A stretch of DNA of 64,000 nt from a virus, in the IMG/VR virus record IMGVR_UViG_3300018080_000138, positions 1-64,000 of that record. One strand, written 5' to 3'. Under the pieces are notes generated by a model that was given only the letters and a program-made list of their open reading frames with translations, was not told where the DNA came from and searched no databases. Below, in pieces: positions 6,849-43,446 of the stretch (positions within the stretch are counted from its first letter, which is position 1; each line of letters begins with the position of its first letter). A program made the position numbers and the translations under genes.

Positions 6849-9800
6849 ATGCAAATATTTGAAGATGAAGCTGGACTTCTTGCTGAGCAAAGATCATTGA
6901 GTACAGAATGTTCGTATCGATGTTTTATCTATGAAAGACTTGGTAAGATAGTAGATTATGACGTAGCAGTAGCGGGTATGCAAAATATATATATCGAAGG
7001 CAGATTGGACTCTACACCCCACACTATCAATGTAATAAAAGGTGATTTTTTATTAATAGAATCAAGTAATAGGAGCTTTGAGGACGAATTTTATGTTAAT
7101 GCTAATAGTGGATATCAAGCGGGTGGTGGTAATACATGCATACAAATATCATTAGATAATAAGTATAAGAATGGATTTTTAGATGAGGGTGAAACACACA
7201 ATGCAATTGACGATGATGATTTAAATGGAATTGTGTACAAAAGGTATGAGGTAACAGATAATATTATTAAAAACTCGTTAAGATCTATTAACTATGGAAT
7301 GGATACATCTACATATTGCCGATCAAAGGCAACGGTAACACAATTTGAGTTAAGTAATAAGGATTATTTTTATTGTGATAGAGAGAATGAAAAAGGAATA
7401 TTTTTTTCAAAAATATTTAATTGCTCGGTTACGTCTATAACTGAGGGTGTACCTGACACAAAGGTATATTACTCAGGCTCGAGTTGGAAGGATAATTTAC
7501 AAGGAAGTACATTAGTTCCTATCTCTGGAGATACAATAGATGCTGAATATATGATTTTATCTTCTAATGCAGAATTAAATAGATTAGAAGTATACGGAAC
7601 ATTAGAGTCAGATGGTCTTGAGGTAGGTGATTATTTTACTATTGAGACATATAGAAGAAAATTAGTAAAGATAGTAGCCGGTTATAGAAGTATTGGCTCA
7701 GATTGGTATTTATTATTTGGTGGAATAATTAGAACTGATGGTTTTGTTGTGTCTGATGATAATAGAACAATAAACATTAAATGTTTTGGGCATGCAAAAG
7801 ATCTTGAGAATAATTATGCATATGAGGCTGCCGATGGTAGTTATTTTCATATTTTAAGTGGTGTTACGATTGTTGGATTTAGTGTCTATGGAAATGTTTC
7901 ATATGGTGTAAAGACAATAAATTATTTATTCTCAAATGGAGTCGCCATACCTGGAATAAACCCTATTTATGTTGATAAATGGTTTGGTGGTTCGCGTAAT
8001 AGATTGATTAGATTTAGACCATCTGATGAGTTAAGTTACGATAATGGCCCTTGGGTTACTGTAAGCAACTCAATATATGGAAACGATGGTGCAAACGTAA
8101 AGTATGAGGAAGAAGGTACATATAACTCACTTGAGAGAGCAGGATTAATTTCATTTGATACTGATGAAGATGCAACTATTAAAGAATATGGCGCAGTGGC
8201 ATTATCATTTGATGGTGGAAATGAAGTTGATATAGGATTTTCTAATTTTATAGTTTTATTTTATGATGCAGGAACAGCAACATATACGGATATTACAGGA
8301 ACAATAATTGATAGTGATGGTTACCATATTGATACAATTAGTCAGACAGGTGATGAAATAATAATTTGTTTTAAGTCACAATTTTTTGGTCTTGCGATGA
8401 CATTACTTAGTAAGTCAGATTATGTTGGTGGTGTTGAGTTTAAATACTCAAAAGGTGAGGATTGGTTGGCGTTGGCTGTGACAGATGGGACAGCTGGATG
8501 CACACAGAGTGGTAATATAACATATGATGATCCTGGTGATTGGAAACCATTTTTTCAAGACTTTGGTGGGACAATTGGTGAGGTATCTAATGTTTATGGA
8601 ATTAAAATTAGATCTACATCACCAGGAGGAACAGTAATTCTGGGCATGTTACAACCTTTTATAAAATTATATGGAAAAAGTGGTGTTAATCTTGATGTTA
8701 TTATTAATTATAGAAACCTTCCAAAAAAATCTGTAGAAGATAATGTCATAGTAAGACATGATAGTAATAATAATCCGACGGTGACAAATTGGTACAGTCA
8801 TATAACCGGTGCGTTATTGATTGAGCAACTATGCACTGCTGCTGGGATTGATAGTACTAAAAGAAATATTCCTGATTTAGAAGTTGATCTTGGTAAGTCA
8901 GTAATTTCTTTAATTGGAAGATGTCCAAATCAAAATTATGGCAAGTTACCTTGCTGTTCTTGTTACGATTCTGCGTCGGATACATATTTTTTTGGTGTAG
9001 GTAACGAAGTATGGAAGATGACCAATGAAGGATTTGTATTAATTGGTAAGTTAGATCCTTATGTAGGTGATTCATCGTGGGATACTGAAGTAACTGGCCT
9101 GGTAGATTGGGATAAGGTAACATGGTGTTTGGACATTTGGAAGATGAAAATAGATGGTAATGGTTATTTACAAGGAATTGCAATTTGGCACCCACAAAGA
9201 AGATCGGCAACATATTATAATGAATTTCACGATGATCTTCATGAGTTTGGTAGATCAACACCTTGTATTATATTTAGAAGTACAAATCTAACATCCATTA
9301 CACATCAAACTCAGGCAGATAATCCGGCAGGAAATGGTTGGAGTCAGATAAAAAGTGGTGAGTTATGCCACCGAAGAGGTGTTCAAGCAGATCCAGGTAA
9401 TCCTTGGGCGATAGGAAGGTTGGATTTAGTTTTAGGAATGGGTAGGGGAGAAAATATATGTATACCAATTCCACAATTTATTAATAAGCTGGAATGGCCT
9501 GGTGGTTTTGATACTGATGATAATTACTTAGGAAATGCTAAAGATATTGAGCAAGAAAGAATTACTACACAGTGTGAGGCTGACTCAATTTTACGATACC
9601 ATAGTGGTACAAAATGGTTAGTATATTATAAGTATGCGGGGGGAATTTATCCGGATGACCCACCTCCAGATGACGATGTTGGTTTTCCATTTACCCTTGG
9701 GCAGGCTGGATTAATGATATGGGATGAAGTAAATGATAGATGGATTACAGTTATAAATACAGAGGAAATTTTATATGGTATTGGTGCGGTATCAGTAACA

Positions 9801-11093
9801 GCTGGTGGTGCATTTAGTTCCGTATTATTTGGTAATTATGGCGCAGCCCCACCTGATGGTGGGAATGGATATGACTATGATTTTCTTTGTGGTGATGGTG
9901 TTGATGGTTCAGGTAATTTTTGGTTTTCAGAAATGTATTGGTATGATGGTTGGGGTACATTACCGGCTGCCGTAACATTAGTAAGATCAAAAAATAGAAT
10001 AATAAGGATGTCTTCAGTAGGTGTTCGAACTGTTGTGTTTGATTTTAGTGTTGATAACCCAGAAGCAGGATCATCATTATCCGGAGATGATATATATTAT
10101 GGTACTGTGATAACAATGGTATGGGATGATGTCCAAAATGTGCTTCATGGAACATTATTAGCAAGAAATACAATGGAATATCATTACTATGCATACGATA
10201 TTACAAACGATAAACTGTACACTACTCAAACAGCTAATAATTTTACATTCGATGTTAATAGACAGTTTATTAAGGGTTGTTATTGTTCTGATGGCTATTT
10301 GTATTGGTATTACACAGATCAACGATTTAGAGAATCTTCGGCTGTTCTTGTAAGAGTAAGTTGGGATGTTATTAATGGGTTTGAGATAACATCCTTAAGT
10401 AGTATAAGGACAAGTGAATGGAATGGTGGTGCTGATCTTATAGAAGGATCAGGGATGAGTATTTTTGGTGTGACGGCACCAAATGATAATTATATATTTA
10501 AGTATGACTCATCCTATAAGGTATGGATCTTTCATGGAAAATTTGATACAGATACAATAAGAAAATCTATAGAACGTATTGGTGAGATATTAGGATATAG
10601 ATTATTAATAAAACCAACAAAATTTTTACACCTATTAGATAGATTTACAGGATTAGATACTGTAACATTAAATAGAGAAGTAATATCTAAGGTAGGTGAT
10701 GTATCTGAGTATCCACATATTTATAATAATGTAAGTGTTAATTGGTATGACCCAGAAGGATCAAGAGGTACAGAAAGCTTTGGTAGTACTGGAATAAATA
10801 AAGAACCATTAACAATTAATAACTCACTAATAATCGACGAACATATTGCATTAGAACTTGCAAAAATTATATGGTACAAACTTGTTGGATGGAAAAATTA
10901 TATAGATAATACCGAATTAATATTTTATCATCAAATAGAGGTACAGGATATAGTGTATATTGATGTACCTTTAAAATTTTCAAAAATAAACAGTTCACAA
11001 CAATACTTAATAGAAGAACTTGTTTTTAACTTAATTAATTGGATAGTAAAATTATCAGTAGTTGAAATTGAAGAAATTTCAGAAGGTAGTTAA
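6849..11093 (+). CDS. large tail tip/baseplate hub-like protein with inserted propeller-like domain
   Basis: A 1414-residue protein following the tape measure. The N-terminal 350 residues are strand-rich. Around residues 655-680 a hub-like helix (GALLIEQLCTAAGID) is interrupted; residues about 690-1225 form repeated strand units rich in Trp, Gly and Asp (for example DTYFFGVGNEVWKMT), suggesting a beta-propeller. After it the hub-like segment resumes with IRKSIERIGEILGYRLLIKP and an N-V-S-V-NWYDPEG region. I infer a central hub or tail-tip protein carrying a large inserted domain, possibly surface exposed. Distal-tail (Dit) function could also be included. Confidence 0.65.
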   Translation: MQIFEDEAGLLAEQRSLSTECSYRCFIYERLGKIVDYDVAVAGMQNIYIEGRLDSTPHTINVIKGDFLLIESSNRSFEDEFYVNANSGYQAGGGNTCIQISLDNKYKNGFLDEGETHNAIDDDDLNGIVYKRYEVTDNIIKNSLRSINYGMDTSTYCRSKATVTQFELSNKDYFYCDRENEKGIFFSKIFNCSVTSITEGVPDTKVYYSGSSWKDNLQGSTLVPISGDTIDAEYMILSSNAELNRLEVYGTLESDGLEVGDYFTIETYRRKLVKIVAGYRSIGSDWYLLFGGIIRTDGFVVSDDNRTINIKCFGHAKDLENNYAYEAADGSYFHILSGVTIVGFSVYGNVSYGVKTINYLFSNGVAIPGINPIYVDKWFGGSRNRLIRFRPSDELSYDNGPWVTVSNSIYGNDGANVKYEEEGTYNSLERAGLISFDTDEDATIKEYGAVALSFDGGNEVDIGFSNFIVLFYDAGTATYTDITGTIIDSDGYHIDTISQTGDEIIICFKSQFFGLAMTLLSKSDYVGGVEFKYSKGEDWLALAVTDGTAGCTQSGNITYDDPGDWKPFFQDFGGTIGEVSNVYGIKIRSTSPGGTVILGMLQPFIKLYGKSGVNLDVIINYRNLPKKSVEDNVIVRHDSNNNPTVTNWYSHITGALLIEQLCTAAGIDSTKRNIPDLEVDLGKSVISLIGRCPNQNYGKLPCCSCYDSASDTYFFGVGNEVWKMTNEGFVLIGKLDPYVGDSSWDTEVTGLVDWDKVTWCLDIWKMKIDGNGYLQGIAIWHPQRRSATYYNEFHDDLHEFGRSTPCIIFRSTNLTSITHQTQADNPAGNGWSQIKSGELCHRRGVQADPGNPWAIGRLDLVLGMGRGENICIPIPQFINKLEWPGGFDTDDNYLGNAKDIEQERITTQCEADSILRYHSGTKWLVYYKYAGGIYPDDPPPDDDVGFPFTLGQAGLMIWDEVNDRWITVINTEEILYGIGAVSVTAGGAFSSVLFGNYGAAPPDGGNGYDYDFLCGDGVDGSGNFWFSEMYWYDGWGTLPAAVTLVRSKNRIIRMSSVGVRTVVFDFSVDNPEAGSSLSGDDIYYGTVITMVWDDVQNVLHGTLLARNTMEYHYYAYDITNDKLYTTQTANNFTFDVNRQFIKGCYCSDGYLYWYYTDQRFRESSAVLVRVSWDVINGFEITSLSSIRTSEWNGGADLIEGSGMSIFGVTAPNDNYIFKYDSSYKVWIFHGKFDTDTIRKSIERIGEILGYRLLIKPTKFLHLLDRFTGLDTVTLNREVISKVGDVSEYPHIYNNVSVNWYDPEGSRGTESFGSTGINKEPLTINNSLIIDEHIALELAKIIWYKLVGWKNYIDNTELIFYHQIEVQDIVYIDVPLKFSKINSSQQYLIEELVFNLINWIVKLSVVEIEEISEGS

Positions 11094-12511
11094 TGGCAGT
11101 CGCAATTGCATATCAATTTATTGATACAGGTAATAAACCTACAAGAGTATTTAGAGCACTTGACTCAACGCAGTTATGGAAGGAATCTTCTATTTTTATC
11201 TCACCACCTTACTCACCTTACTTTGTAGTGGATAGAATTACAGGTAATGATTATGTTTACTCAGTTGGTAATGCTGGTGGTTTAGAATTACGGACTGATG
11301 GTGGTCTATTGATTAATACATATTCGGCACAAGATTATTGTCCTTTTTTTATGACATCTGATAAGATTTGGTGGTTTTATAGAAATAGAGGTTCTGGTGG
11401 AAATCTTGTTGGGAATTGTGATTTAGATCTTAGTAATCCATTTACAACTGTGCCATTATCGGCAGGTGTAATATATGATGCAGCTGTTACATTTGATGGT
11501 GCATATGTATATTTTACTACAGGCAGTAAATTGTATAAGTTTAATATAAATAATATTAGTGCCGGTAATGAGATATGGTCATGGACAAGTGGTAGTAACT
11601 GCTATACTGTGTGTTGTGACTTAAATGGTGATGCCTATGTAAGTTCATTATTGACATGTACAGGAAATTATTATTGTACAAGAAAAGTGGATGGTAGTAC
11701 AGGATTGCAAGTAACACCATTTGGAAATCTTGGCACAGGATATATAATAGGAGGTGGGTTAAATTGTTGTTCCTCACCTGATAGAGATAAATTATACACA
11801 CCAACGTGGGCAGCAACATCTGCTGCTGCTACTTTTGGGGGGATTGAGTTTGATCCAAGGAGGAATAGTGAGTATACAACGGGGGGTATTTTTGTTGGTA
11901 GGACAAAGGGAGCCGATGTATTAGGAACACCTTGGAGACCTTTTACTTATTGTACCGCAATATATAATAGTAGCTATTTATTTGCCGGATCATTATATGA
12001 TGGCAGTATACAAGATTCAGGTATTCGTCGTTATACTATATCATCTGATTGGCCTGTATCACCAGGACACCAGGATCAGGATTGGTACATCCATGAGTAC
12101 AATGGTACACATCAATTTGCAGGTGATCCCACAGGATATATATCATATTATATATGGTATACTCCAATAGAAGGTGGTGAAATTGGAGCAGCGTTGGATA
12201 AGCAGGTGGATGTTTTACGAAATGTCACTGTTACAGGCACACCACCAATAGGTGGATATACATATTTTCAAGTACAGATAGCACGTGACTCAGGTTTTAC
12301 AGATATTAGTTATAATGGTTACTCAACAGACTTATATAACCATAAAGTATCACCTGATAACGGAACTTTTTATGGTACTATGGAAAATAGATTGGATAGA
12401 CTTAAACTTTATTATGTTAGAGTGCGGTGGGGCAATGATGGTGGTGAAAGTTCATGGTCTTCAGTGCTATGGTTTCAAACAGGAGAAAAGGGATCAGCCT
12501 GGTACAACTAA
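11093..12511 (+). CDS. tail protein with propeller-like repeats and C-terminal fibronectin-like domain
   Basis: The 472-residue product starts at a TAATG overlap. Residues 1-330 have repeated short strands with Asp/Gly turns and aromatic residues (such as VYFTTGSKLYKFNI), a propeller-like pattern related in style to the insertion in the upstream hub protein. The last 120 residues have the fibronectin III-like pattern FQVQIARDSGF ... LYYVRVRWGNDGGESSWSSVLWFQT. Likely a receptor-binding or baseplate accessory protein. No enzyme motif is seen. Confidence 0.55.
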   Translation: MAVAIAYQFIDTGNKPTRVFRALDSTQLWKESSIFISPPYSPYFVVDRITGNDYVYSVGNAGGLELRTDGGLLINTYSAQDYCPFFMTSDKIWWFYRNRGSGGNLVGNCDLDLSNPFTTVPLSAGVIYDAAVTFDGAYVYFTTGSKLYKFNINNISAGNEIWSWTSGSNCYTVCCDLNGDAYVSSLLTCTGNYYCTRKVDGSTGLQVTPFGNLGTGYIIGGGLNCCSSPDRDKLYTPTWAATSAAATFGGIEFDPRRNSEYTTGGIFVGRTKGADVLGTPWRPFTYCTAIYNSSYLFAGSLYDGSIQDSGIRRYTISSDWPVSPGHQDQDWYIHEYNGTHQFAGDPTGYISYYIWYTPIEGGEIGAALDKQVDVLRNVTVTGTPPIGGYTYFQVQIARDSGFTDISYNGYSTDLYNHKVSPDNGTFYGTMENRLDRLKLYYVRVRWGNDGGESSWSSVLWFQTGEKGSAWYN

Positions 12512-35204: not shown

Positions 35205-36105
35205 AAAGAAGAATAGTGTTGGGAAGGTAGAACTTGATCAATGTATTTCATTTTTAGAGAATAAACTTTATCCAAATATTATCCAAGGGTTAACTGATGA
35301 CATGGTCGAGGTTTATGATGTATGGAAAACAGGTTTACCTACTTTTAACTCAATCTCAGGAATTGGTGGTTTACCGAAGGGTAGACTTATTGAGATATTT
35401 GGTTCAGAAGGTGTTGGAAAATCATCACTTGCATTAAAATTTATAAAGGTTGTACAACAAGCTGGTGGTGTTGCGTTATACCTTGATTATGAGCATAGTT
35501 TTTCTACGAGATATGCAAGGATAAATGGTGTATCTTGTACAAAGGATAAATTTTTATTTTCTCAACCGGAATGCCTTGAAGATGGTTGGGACATTATAGA
35601 TGCACTTATTACTAATAATTTAGTTGATTTAATTGTCTTAGATAGTCTTGCGTCGGCACCAACAAGGGCAGAAGTAGAGGGTGATATTGGTGACTCACAA
35701 ATTGCTGTCCATGCAAGAGCAGTATCTCATGCACTTCGAAAATTAACATCGAAATTAGGTAAATCAAATACAACGTTGATTTTTATAAATCAGATAAGAT
35801 CAAAAATACAGACAATGGGATATGGTAGAAAAGAAACAACTCCTGGTGGAAAGTCTGTAAAATTTTATGCATCTATGCGGTTTAGGATGGTAAGAACGAA
35901 GGGAATTAGAAGGAATATAAATATTGATGGGTTATCACAAAAAATTGAAGTAGTTAGTGAGATTAAAGTGATTGCTGCAAAAAATAAAATGGCACCTCCA
36001 TTTAAGGAAGGTTATTTATATCTTGTACATGGTGCTGGAGTTTTTGAGAAGGTATCTGTTGATAAAGTATTAAAAGAATTGAAGAGAAGAGAAAATGTTA
36101 AATAG
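35197..36105 (+). CDS. RecA-like recombinase
   Basis: I chose ATG 35197; an in-frame TTG at 35188 is an alternative. The 302-residue product has Walker A GSEGVGKSS (69-77), ALYLDYEHSF (RecA E96 region), LIVLDSLASAP (Walker B), LIFINQIRSK with the conserved N-Q-x-R, and TTPGGKSVKFYAS. It lacks the long acidic C-terminus of bacterial RecA. It pairs strands in recombination-dependent replication and acts next to the SbcCD-like genes. Confidence 0.93.
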   Translation: MSKKKNSVGKVELDQCISFLENKLYPNIIQGLTDDMVEVYDVWKTGLPTFNSISGIGGLPKGRLIEIFGSEGVGKSSLALKFIKVVQQAGGVALYLDYEHSFSTRYARINGVSCTKDKFLFSQPECLEDGWDIIDALITNNLVDLIVLDSLASAPTRAEVEGDIGDSQIAVHARAVSHALRKLTSKLGKSNTTLIFINQIRSKIQTMGYGRKETTPGGKSVKFYASMRFRMVRTKGIRRNINIDGLSQKIEVVSEIKVIAAKNKMAPPFKEGYLYLVHGAGVFEKVSVDKVLKELKRRENVK

Positions 36106-37072
36106 AGTAGTAATCAAAAATTTTCAGAGTTTAGAGCATATCGAGTTTGTACTTGGTAATATTACAGTAATTACCGGCGAGACTGACCATGGTAAGTCAG
36201 CAATTATTCGTGCAATTGATATGTGTAGTTCAGGAAGATTAGTAGGTGAGCATGTTACATTTGATAAAGAATTCTCTGAGACTCACTTGTTTTTTGATGA
36301 TATTTCTATAAGTTGTGTGAAAGGTAAAAGGATAAATTCTTATATAGTTGGTAGTAAAAAGTATAGTTCTGTTGGTCGTACATTACCAGTAGAAGTAATA
36401 AATGGACTAAACATGAAACCTATAAGTGGAATTAAAAAAGAAGTGTATTTTCCTCATATAGCTACTCAAAAACAATCACCTTTTATACTTTCTACATCTT
36501 CATCCGCTGCTAATAGAATAATAGGCAATTTGACTGGTATTGATGTTTTAACCAATGCTACTTATGATAATCAGAGTGAGATCTTGAAGCTTAAAAGAAA
36601 AAGAAGATTTCATTTGGAAGAGGTACAGAGGTTAAAACAAGAGTATGATCCAAAAAAATTTTTAGTATTAAAGAAATTATTATTAAAAGTTCGTAAGTTA
36701 GAGGATAGTTATATAAAAGCCATTAAAAAGCGGTCTGTATTGTTGGAAAAGGAAAAGTTGACTAAACATGTTAAGAGTATTAGATGTAAATTGCAAAGTT
36801 TAAAGAAACAATTGGCAATAGTTAATAAATTACCAAATGTTGATAATAAAATTAATGAGATAAGTGCAAAGAATGATGAGTGTGTATTGGTAGAAAATAT
36901 TTTTAAGAGATTGTCTTTAGCTGAAGAAAATCTTAGTAAAATAAATAAATCCTTTAAGCAAGCATTAAAGGATTTAAAAGTTAAGTTGGATGGTTTAAAA
37001 GTTTGCCCATTTTGCCTGTCAAGTATAGATACTAAGAAGATAAACAAAATTGTAAGGGAATTAATAAGATGA
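36095..37072 (+). CDS. SbcC/Rad50 N-terminal half with zinc hook (split gene)
   Basis: The 325-residue protein starts like SbcC/Rad50 (RVVIKNFQSLEHIEFVLGNITVITGETDHGKSAI, Walker A at 28-35), then Q-K-QSPFILS, corresponding to the Q-loop, then a coiled coil from about residue 165. It ends just after the zinc hook CPFC (304-307) with 18 more residues. The signature motif and Walker B are absent and are found in a separate gene at 39271-39888. I infer the two halves assemble through the coils. Confidence 0.85.
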   Translation: MLNRVVIKNFQSLEHIEFVLGNITVITGETDHGKSAIIRAIDMCSSGRLVGEHVTFDKEFSETHLFFDDISISCVKGKRINSYIVGSKKYSSVGRTLPVEVINGLNMKPISGIKKEVYFPHIATQKQSPFILSTSSSAANRIIGNLTGIDVLTNATYDNQSEILKLKRKRRFHLEEVQRLKQEYDPKKFLVLKKLLLKVRKLEDSYIKAIKKRSVLLEKEKLTKHVKSIRCKLQSLKKQLAIVNKLPNVDNKINEISAKNDECVLVENIFKRLSLAEENLSKINKSFKQALKDLKVKLDGLKVCPFCLSSIDTKKINKIVRELIR

Positions 37073-37992
37073 TACTTATGTTTATAAATGATATACACCT
37101 TACATTGACATCACCTGCAAAAAGGAAGCAAACATATTTTAAAGAAATTTGTGCGAAGTTAGAAGAAATAAAGGAGGTTGCAGAAAGAATTGGTAGTACT
37201 GCGATAGTATTAACAGGTGATATTTTTCATAGGAGAAATGAGGATTACCTTACATTAAATTGGTTTTTGAATTGGATAAAAGAATGCCCATGTCCTGTTC
37301 ATGCAGTTATTGGAAATCATGATTATGTAGGTAATTTGGCAAATATTAGGTATAAACCAATGGGATCATTAATATGGTCGGGATTGTGTAATGTGAATAA
37401 CGCATTTATTGAAAGTGAGAATACTTCATGCATGTTATTTAAAAAGCATTGGAAGTATTCTAATGATGTAGAATACTATAAGGTTAAGAAAAGTTCTGCA
37501 AGGTATAATATACTCGCAACACATGCACCATTTATTCCTGATGGTGTAAAGGGATTTGGAACAGTATTTAAGTATTCACAGATAAAGATGACCGTCGACT
37601 ATATTTTTCATGGGCATCACCATAATGATTATGGTATTCAAGCAGTTAATGGAATACGATTTGTTAATCTTGGTGCATTATCAAGAGGATCGTTGGTTGA
37701 GAGAGATTTAAAGCGAGAAATAAAGATCCCAATTCTTTATTTAGGAAATAAGGCTACGGTAAAACAGTATAAGTTAAAAAATGTTTTACCAATTCACGAG
37801 GTCATATCTTCATCTGAGGAACAGTTATATGATATTGAGCGGTTGGATAAAGAAAAGGTAGATTTGTTTTTAAGTGAAGTTGGTATGACAAGAAAGGATA
37901 CAATAGATTTTTCTTGGGTATATGAAGATGTAGGTGACCCTGTTAAAACGTGTGTTAAGAATTATATAGAAAGACATATTTATGGACATTGA
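37069..37992 (+). CDS. sbcD: SbcD/Mre11-like nuclease
   Basis: The 307-residue phosphoesterase has NDIHLT (D8, H10), VLTGDIFHRR (D51), IGNHDY (N83, H84), ATHAP and FHGHHH, with a C-terminal extension of about 80 residues like the Rad50-contacting part of Mre11. It lies between the two Rad50-like half genes, which supports an SbcCD complex that processes DNA ends. It overlaps the upstream gene by 4 bases. Confidence 0.9.
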   Translation: MILMFINDIHLTLTSPAKRKQTYFKEICAKLEEIKEVAERIGSTAIVLTGDIFHRRNEDYLTLNWFLNWIKECPCPVHAVIGNHDYVGNLANIRYKPMGSLIWSGLCNVNNAFIESENTSCMLFKKHWKYSNDVEYYKVKKSSARYNILATHAPFIPDGVKGFGTVFKYSQIKMTVDYIFHGHHHNDYGIQAVNGIRFVNLGALSRGSLVERDLKREIKIPILYLGNKATVKQYKLKNVLPIHEVISSSEEQLYDIERLDKEKVDLFLSEVGMTRKDTIDFSWVYEDVGDPVKTCVKNYIERHIYGH

Positions 37993-38215
37993 TAAACTTA
38001 AAAAGAAAATTCTTGAAATAAAAACCAGGAAGAATATATTAGAAACTAAGATAGAAACTTTGGCCGTTGAACTACAAGCATTGCAGGAAAAGACAGGATT
38101 AATTAGTACTGATGATATAGCAGCTCAGATTAAGCAGAATAACAATGAGATTAGAACAATAATATCGGTTGCTGATAAAATTTTATTAAAGGTAAAAGAA
38201 AACGATGGAATTTAA
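37982..38215 (+). CDS. small coiled-coil protein
   Basis: The 77-residue product is one continuous heptad-like coiled coil (KLKKKILEIKTRKNILETKIETLAVELQALQ region), with a short break near residue 40. It overlaps both neighbours. Located between SbcD and the clamp, and close to the two Rad50 halves, it could add a coiled-coil segment to the split SbcC, but this is inference. Confidence 0.6.
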   Translation: MDIDKLKKKILEIKTRKNILETKIETLAVELQALQEKTGLISTDDIAAQIKQNNNEIRTIISVADKILLKVKENDGI

Positions 38216-39281
38216 AATACATAGCCAGATATTGAGTAGTATAGTAAAAAAATTTAGTCCAATATTGGCAAGTAAGGGCATGATAGAAGGACATGGGAAT
38301 ATTTTTTTAAATGCAAAAGGTAATAAGTTGCAGGTATTTGGAGAGAATACTTCAGTTGGGTTACTATTAAATGAATGTGATGTATCAATTATTAAAGATG
38401 GTAAAGTAGTAATAGATTTTTTAGTATTAAAAGAAATTTCAAGTCATACAAAAGATAATGTATTATTTAAAACTTCTGATAAGTTAGAAATAGTAAATAA
38501 AAGTACAAAATGGAAATTTGAGTTATTACAACAAAAATCTAAATTTCCTGGATTCCCAAAAAATAATACGAATAAAGTTGTACTAAAAACGAATGAACTT
38601 AATATTGCAATTAATCATACTTCGTATTCTGTTTGTAAAGATATGGCAAGGGTTGAGTTAAATCAGCTTGCGACATCTTCGGGATATTTGGTTGGGACAG
38701 ATGGTATTAGATGTAGTATGTATAAAACAAAACTTGATTTAGCCATTCCTGAGGTTGCTATACAGTCATTGGTAACTTTATTAGACATTTTTGATGATAA
38801 AGACGTTTCTATCATAAGCTCTAAAAGTCATACATATTTTCTTTTTCCGTCTAATGTGTATTATTTTAGGAAGTATAATGCAAATTTTCCTGATATAAAG
38901 GAATCCGTACTTAATTTAGTAAAAGATTATGACATGTATATCGAAGTAAATAGAGAACGTTTTATTGATACACTTGGTAGAATTGATATAGCAATTTATA
39001 AGGATCCTACAACACCAGTTGATATTATTGTGTCCAATGGTAAACATTTAATAGTAAAAAGTGTAAGTAATACTGTGAAAAGTGTTGCTAAGATACCTGT
39101 AAGATTAGAAGGAATTAGTATTAATATTCGTGTTCGTTTAAAACATCTTACCGACGCATTAAATAAGTTATCGTCTAAGAATGTGAAGATATTTTATGCG
39201 GGATCTTCTAAACCTTTGTATATAAAGGCCGATAAGTATAAGATAGTAATTTTACCAATGGAAAAGGAAGATGAGAAATAG
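38205..39281 (+). CDS. dnaN: DNA polymerase III beta-like sliding clamp
   Basis: The 358-residue length fits the three-domain bacterial clamp. Features include an N-terminal FKIHSQILSSIVKKFSPIL helix, a domain 2 segment ELNIAINHTSYSVCKDMARVELN matching the F-A-x-S-x-D-x-x-R-P-x-L-x-G block of DnaN, YLVGTDGIRCSMYK matching the V-A-T-D-G-H-R block, and a final VKIFYAGSSKPLYIKADKYKIVILPM matching the P-x-x-I/L terminal strand. The terminal peptide -VILPME extends 6 residues past the usual end. It would be a ring tether for the polymerase. Confidence 0.85.
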   Translation: MEFKIHSQILSSIVKKFSPILASKGMIEGHGNIFLNAKGNKLQVFGENTSVGLLLNECDVSIIKDGKVVIDFLVLKEISSHTKDNVLFKTSDKLEIVNKSTKWKFELLQQKSKFPGFPKNNTNKVVLKTNELNIAINHTSYSVCKDMARVELNQLATSSGYLVGTDGIRCSMYKTKLDLAIPEVAIQSLVTLLDIFDDKDVSIISSKSHTYFLFPSNVYYFRKYNANFPDIKESVLNLVKDYDMYIEVNRERFIDTLGRIDIAIYKDPTTPVDIIVSNGKHLIVKSVSNTVKSVAKIPVRLEGISINIRVRLKHLTDALNKLSSKNVKIFYAGSSKPLYIKADKYKIVILPMEKEDEK

Positions 39282-39888
39282 ATTAAAACATTCTATTGAG
39301 AGAATAGAAAAACAATTAAATATGTATAATAGTATGAGAATGAGTATTAAATATCATGAAGTTGAGTTAGAAAAAATTAACTCAGAATTATTGATTCAAG
39401 AAAAGAGTTTTTCCGTACTAAAGAAGGCACAAGAGGGAGTTACGGATATCCATAGTAGGCTTGAGGCAATGCAGTCGTATGCCTTAAGTTATATTTTAGA
39501 GCAGAATGTAAAATTTTCTTTTAACTTTTCTTCTGCAAAGTCTGGTTCAATGAGGTTTAAATTGTCATTGGATAATTCTAAACAGAAGACAGATATCTGT
39601 GGGTCAAGGGGTGGCGGTGTTGAAGACATAATGAGTTTTTTGTTTCGTGTGATTTGTGTATTAACACGAAAACAACGAAAATTTATAGCATTAGATGAAC
39701 CATTTACTGCGATATCACAGAATAAATTTGAACGTTTGATGGAATTTATTGCCATGATAGTAAAAAAAACAGGTTTACAGCTTTTAATTGTTACACATAA
39801 AAAACAATTATTAGACATAGCCGATGTTAAGTATAAGGTAAATCTTATAGATGGGAGTACTAAAATAAAAAGGTTAAAAAATGGTTAA
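39271..39888 (+). CDS. SbcC/Rad50 C-terminal half (split gene)
   Basis: The 205-residue protein begins with a coiled coil (residues 1-70) and continues with the Rad50 C-terminal ATPase lobe: signature SRGGGVEDIMSFLFRV (112-127), Walker B FIALDEPFTAIS (138-149) and H-loop IVTHKK (H176). No Walker A is present; that is in the gene at 36095-37072. Together they would make one Rad50-type ATPase. It is separated from its partner by SbcD, a coiled coil and the clamp. Confidence 0.85.
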   Translation: MRNRLKHSIERIEKQLNMYNSMRMSIKYHEVELEKINSELLIQEKSFSVLKKAQEGVTDIHSRLEAMQSYALSYILEQNVKFSFNFSSAKSGSMRFKLSLDNSKQKTDICGSRGGGVEDIMSFLFRVICVLTRKQRKFIALDEPFTAISQNKFERLMEFIAMIVKKTGLQLLIVTHKKQLLDIADVKYKVNLIDGSTKIKRLKNG

Positions 39889-41002
39889 TCTTGCAATAAA
39901 GTACAGACCGGTAACATTTGATAAAGTAATTGGACAAGAAGTAACTGTAAAAATACTTAAAAATATGGTAAAAACAAAGGACATATGCTTATCCTATGTA
40001 TTTTCTGGATCGTTTGGTACTGGAAAGACAACGTTAGCACGTATTTTTTCACGGGCTATAAATTGTGAGAATAAAGAATTTGGGTATAATCCCTGTAATA
40101 AATGCCATACATGTAAAAGTATTAGTTCAGATACTGCAATGGATGTTGTAGAAATGGATGCAGCATCCAATGGTCTTGTTAATGATATTAGAAATTTATC
40201 AGAGGCCGCAAAGTATAAACCAATTATTAATTATAAGGTTTTTATACTTGATGAAGCACATAGTATAAGTAATACGGCATTTCAGGTGTTTTTAAAGATG
40301 CTTGAGGTACAGGGAAAAGCCGTATTTATTTTTTGTACAACAAGAAAAGATAAGATTCCTGAGACAATTTTATCAAGAAGTAGTGTTCATGATTTTTACC
40401 CTGTATCTGATGTGGATATTTTTTCTTTACTTAAAGATATAGCAGGTAAAGAAAATTTAAAATATGATGAGAAGGCATTGAAAATTATAAGTAAGTTGTC
40501 AGATGGATCAGTCAGAAATGCATTGACTGTATTGAGTGATTTATCAACAATTGAAATAAGTGTGGCAAATACAGTAAAGTTATATGGATTGGTAACTAAT
40601 AAATATTCTGATAGTATTTTTGAGTATTTATTCTCAGGAAGTGTAAACAATGCACTTAGATTGACTGTAAATGAGATAAATAAAGGAAGTGACATTAAAA
40701 ATATGATTAAGTCGTTATCAAACACGTTACTTGATATTGTAAGTGCAAAATATAAGTGTTACCAGAGAATAAACGGATCATTAGAAAGAAAGAAAAGAAT
40801 CTCAAAGTTAGCCCTAAAATTAAAAAATGGTATACCTTCTAAGTTATTTACGGAATTTTGTAATGCTGATTTTAATCTTCGTTCATTAATCCCAAGTAAT
40901 ATAACTATGTTATTATTAATTTCATCAATGGCAGAAGTAATTGGAGTTGAGCAGAGAAATATATTGGATGTTTCTGATATTGAGAGGTTAATAAATGAGT
41001 GA
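39881..41002 (+). CDS. dnaX: DnaX-like clamp loader ATPase
   Basis: The 373-residue protein starts with the DnaX opening KYRPVTFDKVIGQE, Walker A GSFGTGKT (43-50), zinc-binding Cys at 62, 72, 75 and 78, EMDAASN, VFILDEAHS (D124, E125) and ETILSRS, the SRC motif with Ser for Cys. The C-terminus holds the collar helices; the length equals gamma rather than tau. It would load the DnaN-type clamp with the delta and delta-prime-like proteins at 20.4-21.8 kb. Confidence 0.92.
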   Translation: MVNLAIKYRPVTFDKVIGQEVTVKILKNMVKTKDICLSYVFSGSFGTGKTTLARIFSRAINCENKEFGYNPCNKCHTCKSISSDTAMDVVEMDAASNGLVNDIRNLSEAAKYKPIINYKVFILDEAHSISNTAFQVFLKMLEVQGKAVFIFCTTRKDKIPETILSRSSVHDFYPVSDVDIFSLLKDIAGKENLKYDEKALKIISKLSDGSVRNALTVLSDLSTIEISVANTVKLYGLVTNKYSDSIFEYLFSGSVNNALRLTVNEINKGSDIKNMIKSLSNTLLDIVSAKYKCYQRINGSLERKKRISKLALKLKNGIPSKLFTEFCNADFNLRSLIPSNITMLLLISSMAEVIGVEQRNILDVSDIERLINE

Positions 41003-41534
41003 TATAATAAAAAGAAATGAACTTATTTTAGCAATGATCCCAAAAGGTAGAGGGATGGTAGCAAAGTCAGAATATTTTAAGAAAATAATTAAGTTTTTTC
41101 TTCAAGGTTATAGCCCTGAGGTGATAGCCAGAATACTTCGTTTAAAACATGGAAGTAAGATTACAGCCGATTCTATAAGAAAGTATGTAAAGAGATATAT
41201 TGATCCAAAGTTATTAAAATATCATTTAATTCTAAGAAACAAACTGAGAAAAAACTCAGTATATGTCGCAATAGAAGAGTTGTCTGCAATACAAGAGAAT
41301 AGATTGTATAATTTACTTAGACTTGAGAAAAAAAGTAAGGACAAATATATATCTGACGCAAGGTTTGAGATAGGTACACTGTTAAATCTTTATAAAGCAT
41401 TAAATTCAATGGACGTTATTGTTACTGAGGATGAGATTACTGCTAAGCAAGATTTAAGTTTTTCAAGTGATGGTGTTAGAGTTGATAAGGTAGTATCTCT
41501 TGCTAAAAGGATAAAACAAATAAGAGGTTATTAG
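40995..41534 (+). CDS. probable terminase small subunit
   Basis: The 179-residue product has a helix-turn-helix near residues 25-65 (KIIKFFLQGYSPEVIARILRL, then KITADSIRKYVKR), followed by long helices. It lies directly before the terminase ATPase gene and overlaps its neighbours, the usual setting of TerS, which recognises the packaging site. No family-specific residue was identified. Confidence 0.6.
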   Translation: MSDIIKRNELILAMIPKGRGMVAKSEYFKKIIKFFLQGYSPEVIARILRLKHGSKITADSIRKYVKRYIDPKLLKYHLILRNKLRKNSVYVAIEELSAIQENRLYNLLRLEKKSKDKYISDARFEIGTLLNLYKALNSMDVIVTEDEITAKQDLSFSSDGVRVDKVVSLAKRIKQIRGY

Positions 41535-42700
41535 TGAGTGTTAGACGTGAGGTAGAAAATCTTACTGATTCTGAGAAACAACTATTGAGAAAGATGTTGG
41601 ATGATGAGATTTTTTATAAGGAAGTAATAGATAATATTTATATTTGTGATAAGGTGGGAATTCAGCAATTTATTGAAGATGAAAATTATCTTGGAAGTGG
41701 TGATGAGATTTGGCCGGCAATAAAAAACGATCTTATTAAGATATATGAGTTGGGGGTTCGAGAAGCATTTATGGTGGAGGGTATAGGTGCTGGTAAATCA
41801 ACAAAGACGGCTCTTGCGTTGTGTTATGAGTTATTTAAATTAGGGAGGTTAAAAAATCCACAAAGATACTATGGTTTACGTTCAAAAACAAAAATTGCTG
41901 TTATTAATATGTCAATTAGAGCAACACAGGCAAAGGATGTGTTGTTTGATGATATCCAAAGTTTAATAGGAATGTCACCTTGGTTTAATAAATTTTTTAA
42001 GCCAGATCAGAAAGTCCATTCAAAACTTAAATTTCCTAATAATATTTTTGCTATTCCTGGAAATTCACAGGAATCACTTCCAATAGGATTTACGTTAAAA
42101 GCCGCAGCATTGGATGAAGCGGCACATTTTATGACTAAATTTCATATTGGTGATGATATGGATCAAAGTAGAAATGTTTACCTTTCATTATTGAAGAGAT
42201 TAAGATCAAGATTTATGGATTATTTATTAATTGTTTGTACATCTCCGAGATTGGTAGAAGATTTGACTGAGAAGATGAGGGAAAAAGCACTAAAATCCAA
42301 TGGTGACATGTTTTGGATAAGAAGACCACTATGGAAAGCAAAACCAAAAGGATATTATGCAAATGATTATTTTGTCTATGATGAGAGGCATCAAAAAATA
42401 ATTGGTTCGGCAAAGGATGTTATTGAGTGTGTGTTTGGTAAAATAGATGGATTTGAGAAACTATGTCTTGAGGAGGTTCAGTACTTGGTTAATTTAATGT
42501 ATAATTATAAGCCTGAAGCGGTTAGTGATTATGTTATTGACGAGACATTGGAGGTAGTAGACCCTGGATTAGGAATAACAAGGGCCGATGCTGATCTAAG
42601 TGTTGTTAATATTCTTGATAGTATTAGTAACCTTGAGAAAGATGATGAGTTCGATTCTATTGAAGATATTTCCGAGAGCGCTGAGGTGCTCACTATATGA
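41534..42700 (+). CDS. terL: terminase large subunit, ATPase half (split gene)
   Basis: The start is GTG 41534. The 388-residue protein has the packaging ATPase motifs: Walker A VEGIGAGKST (81-90), IAVINMS, Walker B AAALDEAAHF (190-199) and the coupling-type motif LIVCTSPR. The C-terminal 60 residues are acidic and look like a linker. No nuclease motif is present; the nuclease is in the next gene, which overlaps by 4 bases. Confidence 0.87.
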   Translation: MSVRREVENLTDSEKQLLRKMLDDEIFYKEVIDNIYICDKVGIQQFIEDENYLGSGDEIWPAIKNDLIKIYELGVREAFMVEGIGAGKSTKTALALCYELFKLGRLKNPQRYYGLRSKTKIAVINMSIRATQAKDVLFDDIQSLIGMSPWFNKFFKPDQKVHSKLKFPNNIFAIPGNSQESLPIGFTLKAAALDEAAHFMTKFHIGDDMDQSRNVYLSLLKRLRSRFMDYLLIVCTSPRLVEDLTEKMREKALKSNGDMFWIRRPLWKAKPKGYYANDYFVYDERHQKIIGSAKDVIECVFGKIDGFEKLCLEEVQYLVNLMYNYKPEAVSDYVIDETLEVVDPGLGITRADADLSVVNILDSISNLEKDDEFDSIEDISESAEVLTI

Positions 42701-43446
42701 AAATTGAAAGTATAAAAATTCATTCAGACTCAATATTAACTGTTATCCCAAGTCATTTCCTTCCAGATTACCAGGAAGATGCTGGTAAGGCACATAGAGA
42801 TTTTGGTGCAAAAACACATAGAGAATCAATAAGATTTATAAGAGATGAGTTATTAGTTGATTCTATGTTTGATCAGTCAGTTAGTAGACCAATAACAGAT
42901 AATCTTGTACTTTACCGGTGGTTTTTACCTAAGAAAAATTGTTATTACCATGCGCATATTGATCTTGGGTTTAACCATTGTAGTTGTGGTATTGCACTTG
43001 CTCACCAAGAGGGTTGGGGAACAGTAATTGATTTGGCCGAGTCATTATCGCCTAAGTTATTTGGTGGTGAGATAGATTTTGAAGAAATTAGGCAAATAGT
43101 AAAATCTCTTGTTTTAAGAAGATTTAATGTCACTGTCACATACGACAGTTTTCAGTCATTTGATAGTATACAACAGTTAAGACAAGGTGGGATAATTGCT
43201 GATTTATTTTCAGTAGATAGAGATATGAGAGCATATATTTCGTTGAGAAGAGGGTTATATGAGAAGTCTATCAAATGTTATTTTTCTGAGAAGTTAAGAA
43301 ATGAGCTTCTTGGTTTAGTAAGAAGTGGTGATAAAATTGATAAGCCTGTTAATGGTTCAAAGGATCTTTCTGATGCTGTTGCAGCAGCAGTATACCATTG
43401 CAGAGAGTTTTCAAATAGATTAATCACAGAAGGGAAGGTGGTATAA
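42697..43446 (+). CDS. terL: terminase large subunit, nuclease half (split gene)
   Basis: The 249-residue product has the RNase H-like terminase nuclease pattern: HAHIDLGFNHCSCGIALAH (D89), VTVTYDSFQS (D150) and GSKDLSDAVAAAVYH (D223/D226). It lacks any ATPase motif. Together with the preceding gene it rebuilds a normal TerL. It cuts concatemeric DNA during headful or site-specific packaging. The ATGA overlap suggests equal expression of the halves. Confidence 0.85.
   Translation: MKIESIKIHSDSILTVIPSHFLPDYQEDAGKAHRDFGAKTHRESIRFIRDELLVDSMFDQSVSRPITDNLVLYRWFLPKKNCYYHAHIDLGFNHCSCGIALAHQEGWGTVIDLAESLSPKLFGGEIDFEEIRQIVKSLVLRRFNVTVTYDSFQSFDSIQQLRQGGIIADLFSVDRDMRAYISLRRGLYEKSIKCYFSEKLRNELLGLVRSGDKIDKPVNGSKDLSDAVAAAVYHCREFSNRLITEGKVV

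Follow-up and report, generated by a model that had tools for sequence, protein, structure and literature searches.

A gene for the DNA-repair ATPase Rad50/SbcC is found as two separate open reading frames (ORFs) in a stretch of viral DNA of 64,000 nucleotides, called the window below, which comprises positions 1–64,000 of the 96,708-bp IMG/VR virus record IMGVR_UViG_3300018080_000138. The product of the first ORF, the N-half, carries the Walker A motif, the outgoing arm and the zinc hook, and its chain ends 18 residues after the hook motif CPFC. The product of the second, the C-half, carries a coil of about residues 1–77 followed by the other lobe of the ATPase (C-lobe). The genes for SbcD, for a small coiled-coil protein named M, and for the sliding clamp lie between them. 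The features of this region, all on the + strand, are:

36095–37072, +: N-half of Rad50/SbcC, 325 amino acids (ORF, Pfam, PHROGs, AlphaFold2)
36176–36199, +: Walker A motif GETDHGKS, residues 28–35 of the N-half (from the sequence; G28, G33 and K34 invariant in 66 aligned N-halves)
36539–37003, +: N-arm, 155 residues from lobe to hook, in the shortest length class
37004–37015, +: zinc-hook motif CPFC, residues 304–307 of the N-half (from the sequence; C304 and C307 invariant in the 66 aligned)
39271–39888, +: C-half of Rad50/SbcC, 205 amino acids (PHROG match, 2.8e-17; profile match to Rad50 C-terminal chains, 1.6e-16)
39607–39621, +: degenerate ABC signature RGGGV, residues 113–117 of the C-half
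39682–39699, +: Walker B motif FIALDE, residues 138–143 of the C-half (D142 and E143 invariant in 59 aligned C-halves)
39796–39798, +: H-switch histidine H176 of the C-half (histidine in 53 of the 59 aligned)
37069–37992, +: SbcD/Mre11 nuclease, 307 amino acids (Pfam Metallophos, 1.9e-14; phosphoesterase motifs)
37982–38215, +: M, small coiled-coil protein, 77 amino acids (family profile, AlphaFold2)
38205–39281, +: sliding clamp, in the middle of the operon (Pfam DNA_pol3_beta_3, 2.5e-9; PHROG 'DNA polymerase processivity factor', 2.3e-30)

These genes belong to an operon whose members run in series, most of them overlapping their neighbours by a few bases: an SSB-like gene (33841; labelled by position and profile, with no clear match in library searches), RuvC (34608), RecA/UvsX (35188), the N-half, SbcD, M, the clamp, the C-half and the clamp loader (39881–41002). 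The stop of the N-half overlaps the start of SbcD, in which the motifs DxH, GDxxH, GNHD and GHxH are recognized. The clamp, which occupies this place in many relatives as well, probably stands outside the Rad50 complex proper. That the genes are packed into one operon together with recA, the clamp and the clamp loader was counted in favour of the reading that we hold to be very probable, namely an Mre11-Rad50 (SbcCD) nuclease assembled in trans, with the hook on the N-chain alone and M as a third subunit.

Motifs of the two halves

The window N-half matches AAA_23 in Pfam (2.2e-8) and phrog_16465 'exonuclease' (1.1e-15). Its AlphaFold2 model (mean predicted local distance difference test score, pLDDT, 89.3; predicted template modelling score, pTM, 0.55) comprises a Rad50-like ABC lobe (residues 1–148), helices at 149–183, 186–243 and 250–300, the hook, and a terminal helix at 313–324. 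The 66 aligned N-halves share about 18–28% identity with it, and six positions are invariant among them: G28, G33, K34, R39, C304 and C307. Since the hook cysteines are as invariant as the P-loop residues, the hook is under constraint equal to that on the P-loop. The family profile of the N-half finds the Rad50 ATPase 5f3w as its best match in the PDB (1.7e-15), Foldseek with the model returns Rad50 1f2u first, and with NCBIfam the N-half of a relative, locus L016, falls on residues 4–461 of an 883-residue Rad50 model. The profile of the hook tail aligns with residues 1–61 of the 112-residue Rad50 hook structure 1l8d, that is, with the outgoing helix and CPxC, and then ends. This match is the best one (1.5e-5) and is followed closely by an unrelated coiled coil (2.2e-5); it is the aligned CPxC that carries weight, not the E-value. 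In two relatives, L162 (3352–5598, 748 amino acids) and L131 (2683–4803, 706 amino acids), the N-half has an insert of about 315–350 residues exactly inside the Walker A loop, between GK and the remaining lobe, with the hook still C-terminal; judged from the letters, the insert may be a P-loop intein.

The window C-half is matched in Pfam only below the curated cut-offs (DUF2326, 2.6e-4; SMC_N, 4.9e-3), and in PHROGs its match is phrog_15167 'ATPase'. The C-half profile finds as best PDB matches the archaeal Rad50 C-terminal chains 3qkr_B and 1ii8_B (E-value listed above), and the C-half of L016 falls on residues 804–892 of an 895-residue Rad50 model in NCBIfam. G114, D142 and E143 are invariant in the 59 aligned C-halves. 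The signature follows the consensus (F/R)GG(G/S/A)V and not the canonical LSGGE/Q.

The initial annotation had described Rad50/SbcC as two half-genes around SbcD and the clamp, the first with Walker A, a coil, CPFC and a stop 18 residues later, and the ORFs and their sequence are as it described them. Of its account of the second gene, the coil and Walker B stand and the canonical signature motif does not. Its proposal of a two-chain Rad50 is supported by motifs that each half has and the other lacks, by profiles that match both halves of Rad50, and by a contig with one match to AAA_23 and one to the C-half; both hook cysteines lie in the N-half, which alone would form the hook, as it had also suggested. 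It had further named, as what would refute the proposal, evidence that the genes belong to two separate complete ATPases. That reading, together with the variant in which each half has another partner, is very improbable. The two genes are separate, they lie far apart in the phages Tunturi_5 and Magritte, and the N-half gives weak matches to PADLOC models for other AAA proteins (LmuB, 1.3e-12; AriA, 1.1e-11). Against this, neither half is complete, N and C recur together, and the window contig contains no second match to AAA_23 (E up to 0.1) or to the C-half (E up to 1).

The fold of the N-lobe gives somewhat more room to another reading, that of an SMC/RecF/Lamassu-like machine that stands beside SbcD by chance and is no Mre11-Rad50 nuclease. 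In a VIA-align comparison, which covers mainly residues 1–183 and barely includes the distal arm, SMC heads reached Z 12.6 and Rad50 chains 10.9–11.3, and SMC and RecF heads were equal to Rad50 or better; the LmuB match points the same way. We regard this reading as very improbable, since the best PDB sequence matches of both halves are Rad50, the CxxC hook is present, and the operon includes an SbcD with phosphoesterase motifs. In our reading, the family works like Mre11-Rad50 and descends from it.

Distribution of the split among phages

Relatives were sought by tblastn of both window halves against phages, followed by profile scans of viral_contigs, which are mostly from IMG/VR. With tblastn, both halves were matched in vB_BboS-125, Tunturi_5, Magritte and the 485-kb LR745208; in Mvi-JY20 the C-half alone was matched, and the N-half was identified as the adjoining gene. 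The order in LR745208 (N, SbcD, PD-(D/E)XK nuclease, M, clamp, C) is that of the window plus a nuclease. Scans with N-half alignments yielded 80 loci (the best 80 of 158 relatives) and another 20. Once fragments and sequences at least 90% identical were removed, 87 non-redundant N-halves remained, the window included; this set leaves out loci L001–L008 and hence Magritte, which is without CxxC. The alignments hold 66 of these 87 N-halves (L094, also without CxxC, was dropped), 59 of 66 C-halves and 44 of 64 M sequences. The window C-half as a single query found no match in viral_contigs, and the C-based search then used closer sub-alignments, a degenerate signature pattern and one distant C-half.

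The split was found in many divergent phages, as the initial annotation had proposed to check, and its position exactly at the hook is family-wide: CxxC lies 2–21 residues from the C-terminus (median 9) in 86 of the 87 non-redundant N-halves. The motifs are partitioned just as cleanly, with the Walker A pattern G....GK[ST] in 85/87 N-halves and 0/66 C-halves, and the Walker B pattern in 65/66 C-halves. A C-half is encoded in the same locus for 72 of the 87 N-halves; conversely, the flanks in the C-based scan (70 loci, many of them on contigs shared with the N-based scans) hold N in 62 cases, M in 68 and SbcD in 66. No ORF matched both the N and the C profile at 1e-5 (181 N-hit and 169 C-hit ORFs), and when C matches inside the N-hit ORFs were allowed an E-value up to 10, the best reached 0.029 and covered the coil only, matches to the Walker B end being at least 0.13. 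The positive control, the intact SbcC of Achromobacter phage JWF, with its hook at residue 326 in the middle of the 670-amino-acid chain, was matched in one ORF by both profiles (N, 1.4e-10; C, 3.2e-4), the C match failing the 1e-5 cut and passing the looser test at E 10. A second intact-looking ORF, a 616-amino-acid stop-to-stop frame in L208, gave a C match of 0.62, so that fused forms, if divergent, can escape the scan. The C-half is rare in Paenibacillaceae (2/197 genomes, one of these being the search centre, and 0/14 control genomes), as expected for prophage genes.

The occurrence of the same split in distant phages places it beyond chance, and its recurrence across the family shows that it is not local damage. 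Recent damage, a sequencing error, or a split by an intron, intein or homing endonuclease that awaits splicing is accordingly scarcely credible as an explanation. Phage genes split by a homing endonuclease are known, as reported for nrdA of phage Aeh1 (PMC3653736), and in vB_BboS-125 the genes for N and M are separated by one for an AP2-domain protein. On the other hand, the break is the same in very divergent phages and leaves invariant cysteines at the end of the N-chain, other genes stand between the halves, and each half has a start and a stop of its own. An ancient insertion could be the origin of the split without being a present splicing unit, and by analogy with Aeh1 nrdA a homing endonuclease is one possible source of it. 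Some Bacillota phages have one extra gene between N and M (L001 6398–6970, L016 9062–9601); in vB_BboS-125 its product carries the AP2-domain annotation. Genes of this kind, which resemble mobile endonucleases, may give a clue to the way in which the original gene came apart.

A trans-assembled nuclease also fits the phages in which the genes are dispersed. In Tunturi_5, the N-half, M and SbcD lie at 124–128 kb, with M directly after N, and the C-half at 19 kb; in Magritte, N is at about 94 kb, SbcD at about 120, M at about 127 and C at about 0.3 kb. All four genes are retained although they are scattered, which argues that they form a functional set. Across 43 loci, the distances of the genes are correlated pairwise (N-C 0.83, N-SbcD 0.83, N-recA 0.78), and partial correlations given recA are 0.54 for N-C, 0.36 for N-M and 0.38 for C-M. 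Because all of these genes share one genome, such correlations provide weak support.

Two further traits of the window lie outside this gene set. After the clamp loader region, a gene at 41534–42700 matches the terminase large subunit in its ATPase part alone (phrog_17415, 5.3e-7), and it is overlapped by an ORF of 249 amino acids (42697–43446) with no PHROG match; the window terminase may also be divided into ATPase and nuclease genes. The + strand has a strong excess of G over C (skew of 0.17 to 0.42 in every 2-kb block), and there are no tRNA genes in the window.

The protein M and the length of the arm

The initial annotation had also considered the small coiled coil as a third part of the complex. 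As a conserved component it is supported, and its place in the structure is a matter of likelihood, discussed below. AlphaFold2 predicts M as a helical hairpin (helices 3–38 and 44–74, mean pLDDT 82.5) with a conserved G-x-D-P turn joining the two helices. When the M profile was iterated on ORFs of the same strand, nothing on the opposite strand matched at 1e-3; at E-values up to 1e-3 the profile selected exactly one ORF per locus in 165 loci among 12,318 ORFs of 55–140 amino acids, these loci overlapping in part and containing 112 distinct M sequences. M was also found in 6/6 distant records (E from 7e-22 to 0.007), among them as gene 245 of Magritte (3.7e-8), which was not in the training set. 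M is therefore a real conserved family. Its matches in the PDB are weak and mixed, with coiled-coil-like and other proteins among them (the best, at 1.3e-9, is a designed PPR protein), and were set aside as compositional noise and not taken as homology.

The gene for M lies between those for N and C in 68/68 non-redundant loci with all three, as expected for the middle segment of one gene, shared ancestry making the independent cases far fewer than 68. The orders are N-SbcD-M-clamp-C (30), N-M-C-SbcD (17), N-SbcD-M-C (14), clamp-N-SbcD-M-C (5), and two others with one locus each. In locus L066, SbcD directly precedes and overlaps N (8940–11446), the sole case of the order SbcD-N-M-C in the tally; this arrangement could give rise to an SbcD-N fusion such as that of Bacillus phage 0305phi8-36. 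A PD-(D/E)XK nuclease is encoded in 35/72 non-redundant loci with M and SbcD, mostly between these two (PDDEXK_1 examples are L018 7648–8622, 7.8e-15, and L007 6810–7820, 4.9e-16); in the window, no match to this nuclease family was found, and SbcD overlaps M directly.

The arm poses a puzzle. The length from lobe to hook is stepped in the 66 aligned members, with classes at about 147–161, 183–213, 225–249 and 278–302 residues, and the best period is 46 residues (R 0.52, versus 0.32 for the 95% level of a uniform null); many periods were tried, with the null also given its best period, and the statistic ignores shared ancestry. The N-arm thus ranges from 147 to 302 amino acids, the C-coil from 73 to 119 and M from 77 to 98. 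In the window, M plus C-coil (77 + 76 = 153) nearly equals the N-arm (155), the C-coil being counted from the ORF start, so that a wrong start codon would inflate it. Over the four arm classes, the N-arm means rise from 153 to 201, 237 and 291, while the means of M plus C-coil stay at 173, 173, 175 and 163 (n=7, 14, 13 and 4). The idea that M plus C-coil make up a full-length return strand in all members was ruled out on this ground, the sum being static while the N-arm grows. Since neither M nor C becomes longer as the N-arm grows, an ordinary antiparallel coiled coil cannot extend over the full length of this arm. A plain out-and-back coiled coil fits the shortest arm class only; in the longer classes, the extra modules of the arm must be paired among themselves or to the second N-chain, or else stay unpaired. 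Two points thus go beyond the initial annotation: the split is widespread, and the length of the N-arm is decoupled from that of its supposed partner strands.

These data also bear on a rival account of M, in which N and C rebuild Rad50 and M is non-structural, acting as an assembly chaperone, a nuclease regulator, or an adaptor to the clamp or RecA. Its gene adjoins that of the clamp in the commonest order (30/87 non-redundant loci), M plus C-coil (class means of about 163–175 amino acids) does not track the N-arm (153–291), and its weak sequence matches resemble generic coiled-coil noise. The Bacillota prophages tell against it, with M between N and C and no clamp match in their loci (the 17 loci of the order N-M-C-SbcD), as do the invariable place of M between N and C, its position right after N in Tunturi_5 with C about 108 kb away, and the partial correlations given above, by which M distances track N and C alike. 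On balance we think a non-structural M rather unlikely, and M as a subunit of the trans-assembled nuclease the better account.

Proposed assembly of the complex and its meaning

When the N- and C-segments of Rad50 are produced as two chains, they come together to form an ATPase. In the engineered two-chain Rad50 structures (PDB 1f2t/1f2u, 1ii8, 3qkr), these segments form chains A and B, as the halves would here; those constructs are man-made with truncated arms, whereas the phage split is natural and keeps the N-arm and hook. The Rad50/SbcC of cells and other phages resembles the present family in having a Walker A half, an arm and a CxxC hook, then a coil, a signature (degenerate in the present family) and Walker B, with SbcD nearby, but is a single chain, whereas the present family has a chain that stops at the hook, a second gene for the C-half, and M in addition. 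Canonical phage SbcC proteins of this single-chain kind include T4 gp46 (63.6 kDa) and SPN3US gp186 (95.7 kDa), according to the part of PMC5105663 consulted here, and T4 gp46/gp47 is described as resecting DNA ends for recombination (PMC3016280, excerpt). The closest published hint concerns Bacillus phage 0305phi8-36, for which a 2011 report notes an SbcD-SbcC fusion in which one P-loop NTPase segment of SbcC is missing (PMC3175470, excerpt). The model of this fusion, A7KV18 (769 amino acids), is the third structural match of the N-half (E 4.2e-11), and the protein is probably SbcD joined to an N-half, in one chain where the window has separate genes. The Aeh1 enzyme NrdA-a/NrdA-b is likewise encoded by two genes and, in the passages of PMC3653736 that treat it, is still functional as two chains after the homing-endonuclease insertion; that split is due to a mobile endonuclease in one lineage, whereas the present one is widespread and accompanied by a conserved extra subunit. 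Full-text literature searches, with subscription papers and preprints outside their coverage, returned no description of a split Rad50/SbcC; the portions consulted of PMC6375668 do not mention SbcC/Rad50, nor do those of PMC11924767 mention SbcC, SbcD, Rad50 or exonuclease.

Judged by the features that define Rad50, the family has the Walker A lobe, the lobe with Walker B and H-switch, the CxxC hook and, for Mre11-Rad50, a linked SbcD. It lacks three others: a single chain, the canonical signature, and outgoing and returning coils of equal length.

Several observations weigh against a trans-assembled Mre11-Rad50. The signature serine is kept in 6/59 C-halves (HMMER register versus Rad50). The N-arm length is correlated neither with that of the C-coil (Spearman -0.10, p 0.46, n=54) nor with that of M (0.13, p 0.41, n=40). 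The distance correlations N-SbcD and N-recA are about as high as N-C. A hook is missing in L094, the sole exception among the 87 N-halves, with CPIF in place of CxxC, and in Magritte (L004 3501–4553), outside that set. The latter is the only complete N-half seen without a terminal CxxC, in a Microbacterium phage with M, C and SbcD in its genome, and represents a natural hookless case. Among viral records found by one half only, 13/16 N-only records are without C at 1e-3 (nine of them under 19 kb, four of 58, 63, 77 and 205 kb), and 3/8 C-only records are without N (34, 69 and 91 kb), one of the five that are positive for N holding a 38-residue end fragment. Since virus records can be fragments, a missing partner neither shows nor excludes true loss.

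For the trans-assembled nuclease, the following course of assembly is suggested by the motifs and by what is known of Rad50. The N-half and the C-half, as separate chains, would join into one Rad50 ATPase head, and two such heads would sandwich two ATPs; SbcD would bind at the base of the head, and with the SbcD dimer the heads would process DNA ends in recombination-dependent phage replication. At the other end, the hook would terminate the N-chain, and zinc would join two N-chains with no covalent return strand. The M hairpin would most likely pack either on the N-arm or between the hook and the C-coil, at the place of the missing return strand, which it would replace or lock.

A bolder version is tentative, and we would sooner bet against it than for it: a Rad50 in three pieces, built so as to be open at the hook, with zinc-tipped arms made by the N-chains alone that grow by helical modules of about 46 residues independently of the C-chain, and with M in place of the missing return strand as a removable latch. 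The SbcCD ring would then be opened by releasing chains, with the zinc bond kept intact, and head motions driven by ATP would be passed to the hook although no continuous return coil is present.

To our knowledge, all models of Rad50 and SMC proteins treat the arm as one chain that turns round and runs back along itself. Divergent phages and prophages provide a natural family whose return strand is interrupted at the hook, and with it a ready-made test of whether the coil must be continuous for ATP hydrolysis to be coupled to the hook; the family also bears on how the Mre11-Rad50 ring opens. The family further gives functions to three PHROG families that their library does not link: phrog_16465 'exonuclease' (matched by 6/6 N-halves), phrog_15167 'ATPase' (matched by 6/6 C-halves) and the unnamed phrog_18563 (matched by 2/5 M proteins). 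M would be a candidate new subunit of a repair complex that is among the most conserved. It appears that many phages produce Rad50 as two half-proteins with a small coiled-coil partner, which raises the question of whether a continuous arm is needed at all.

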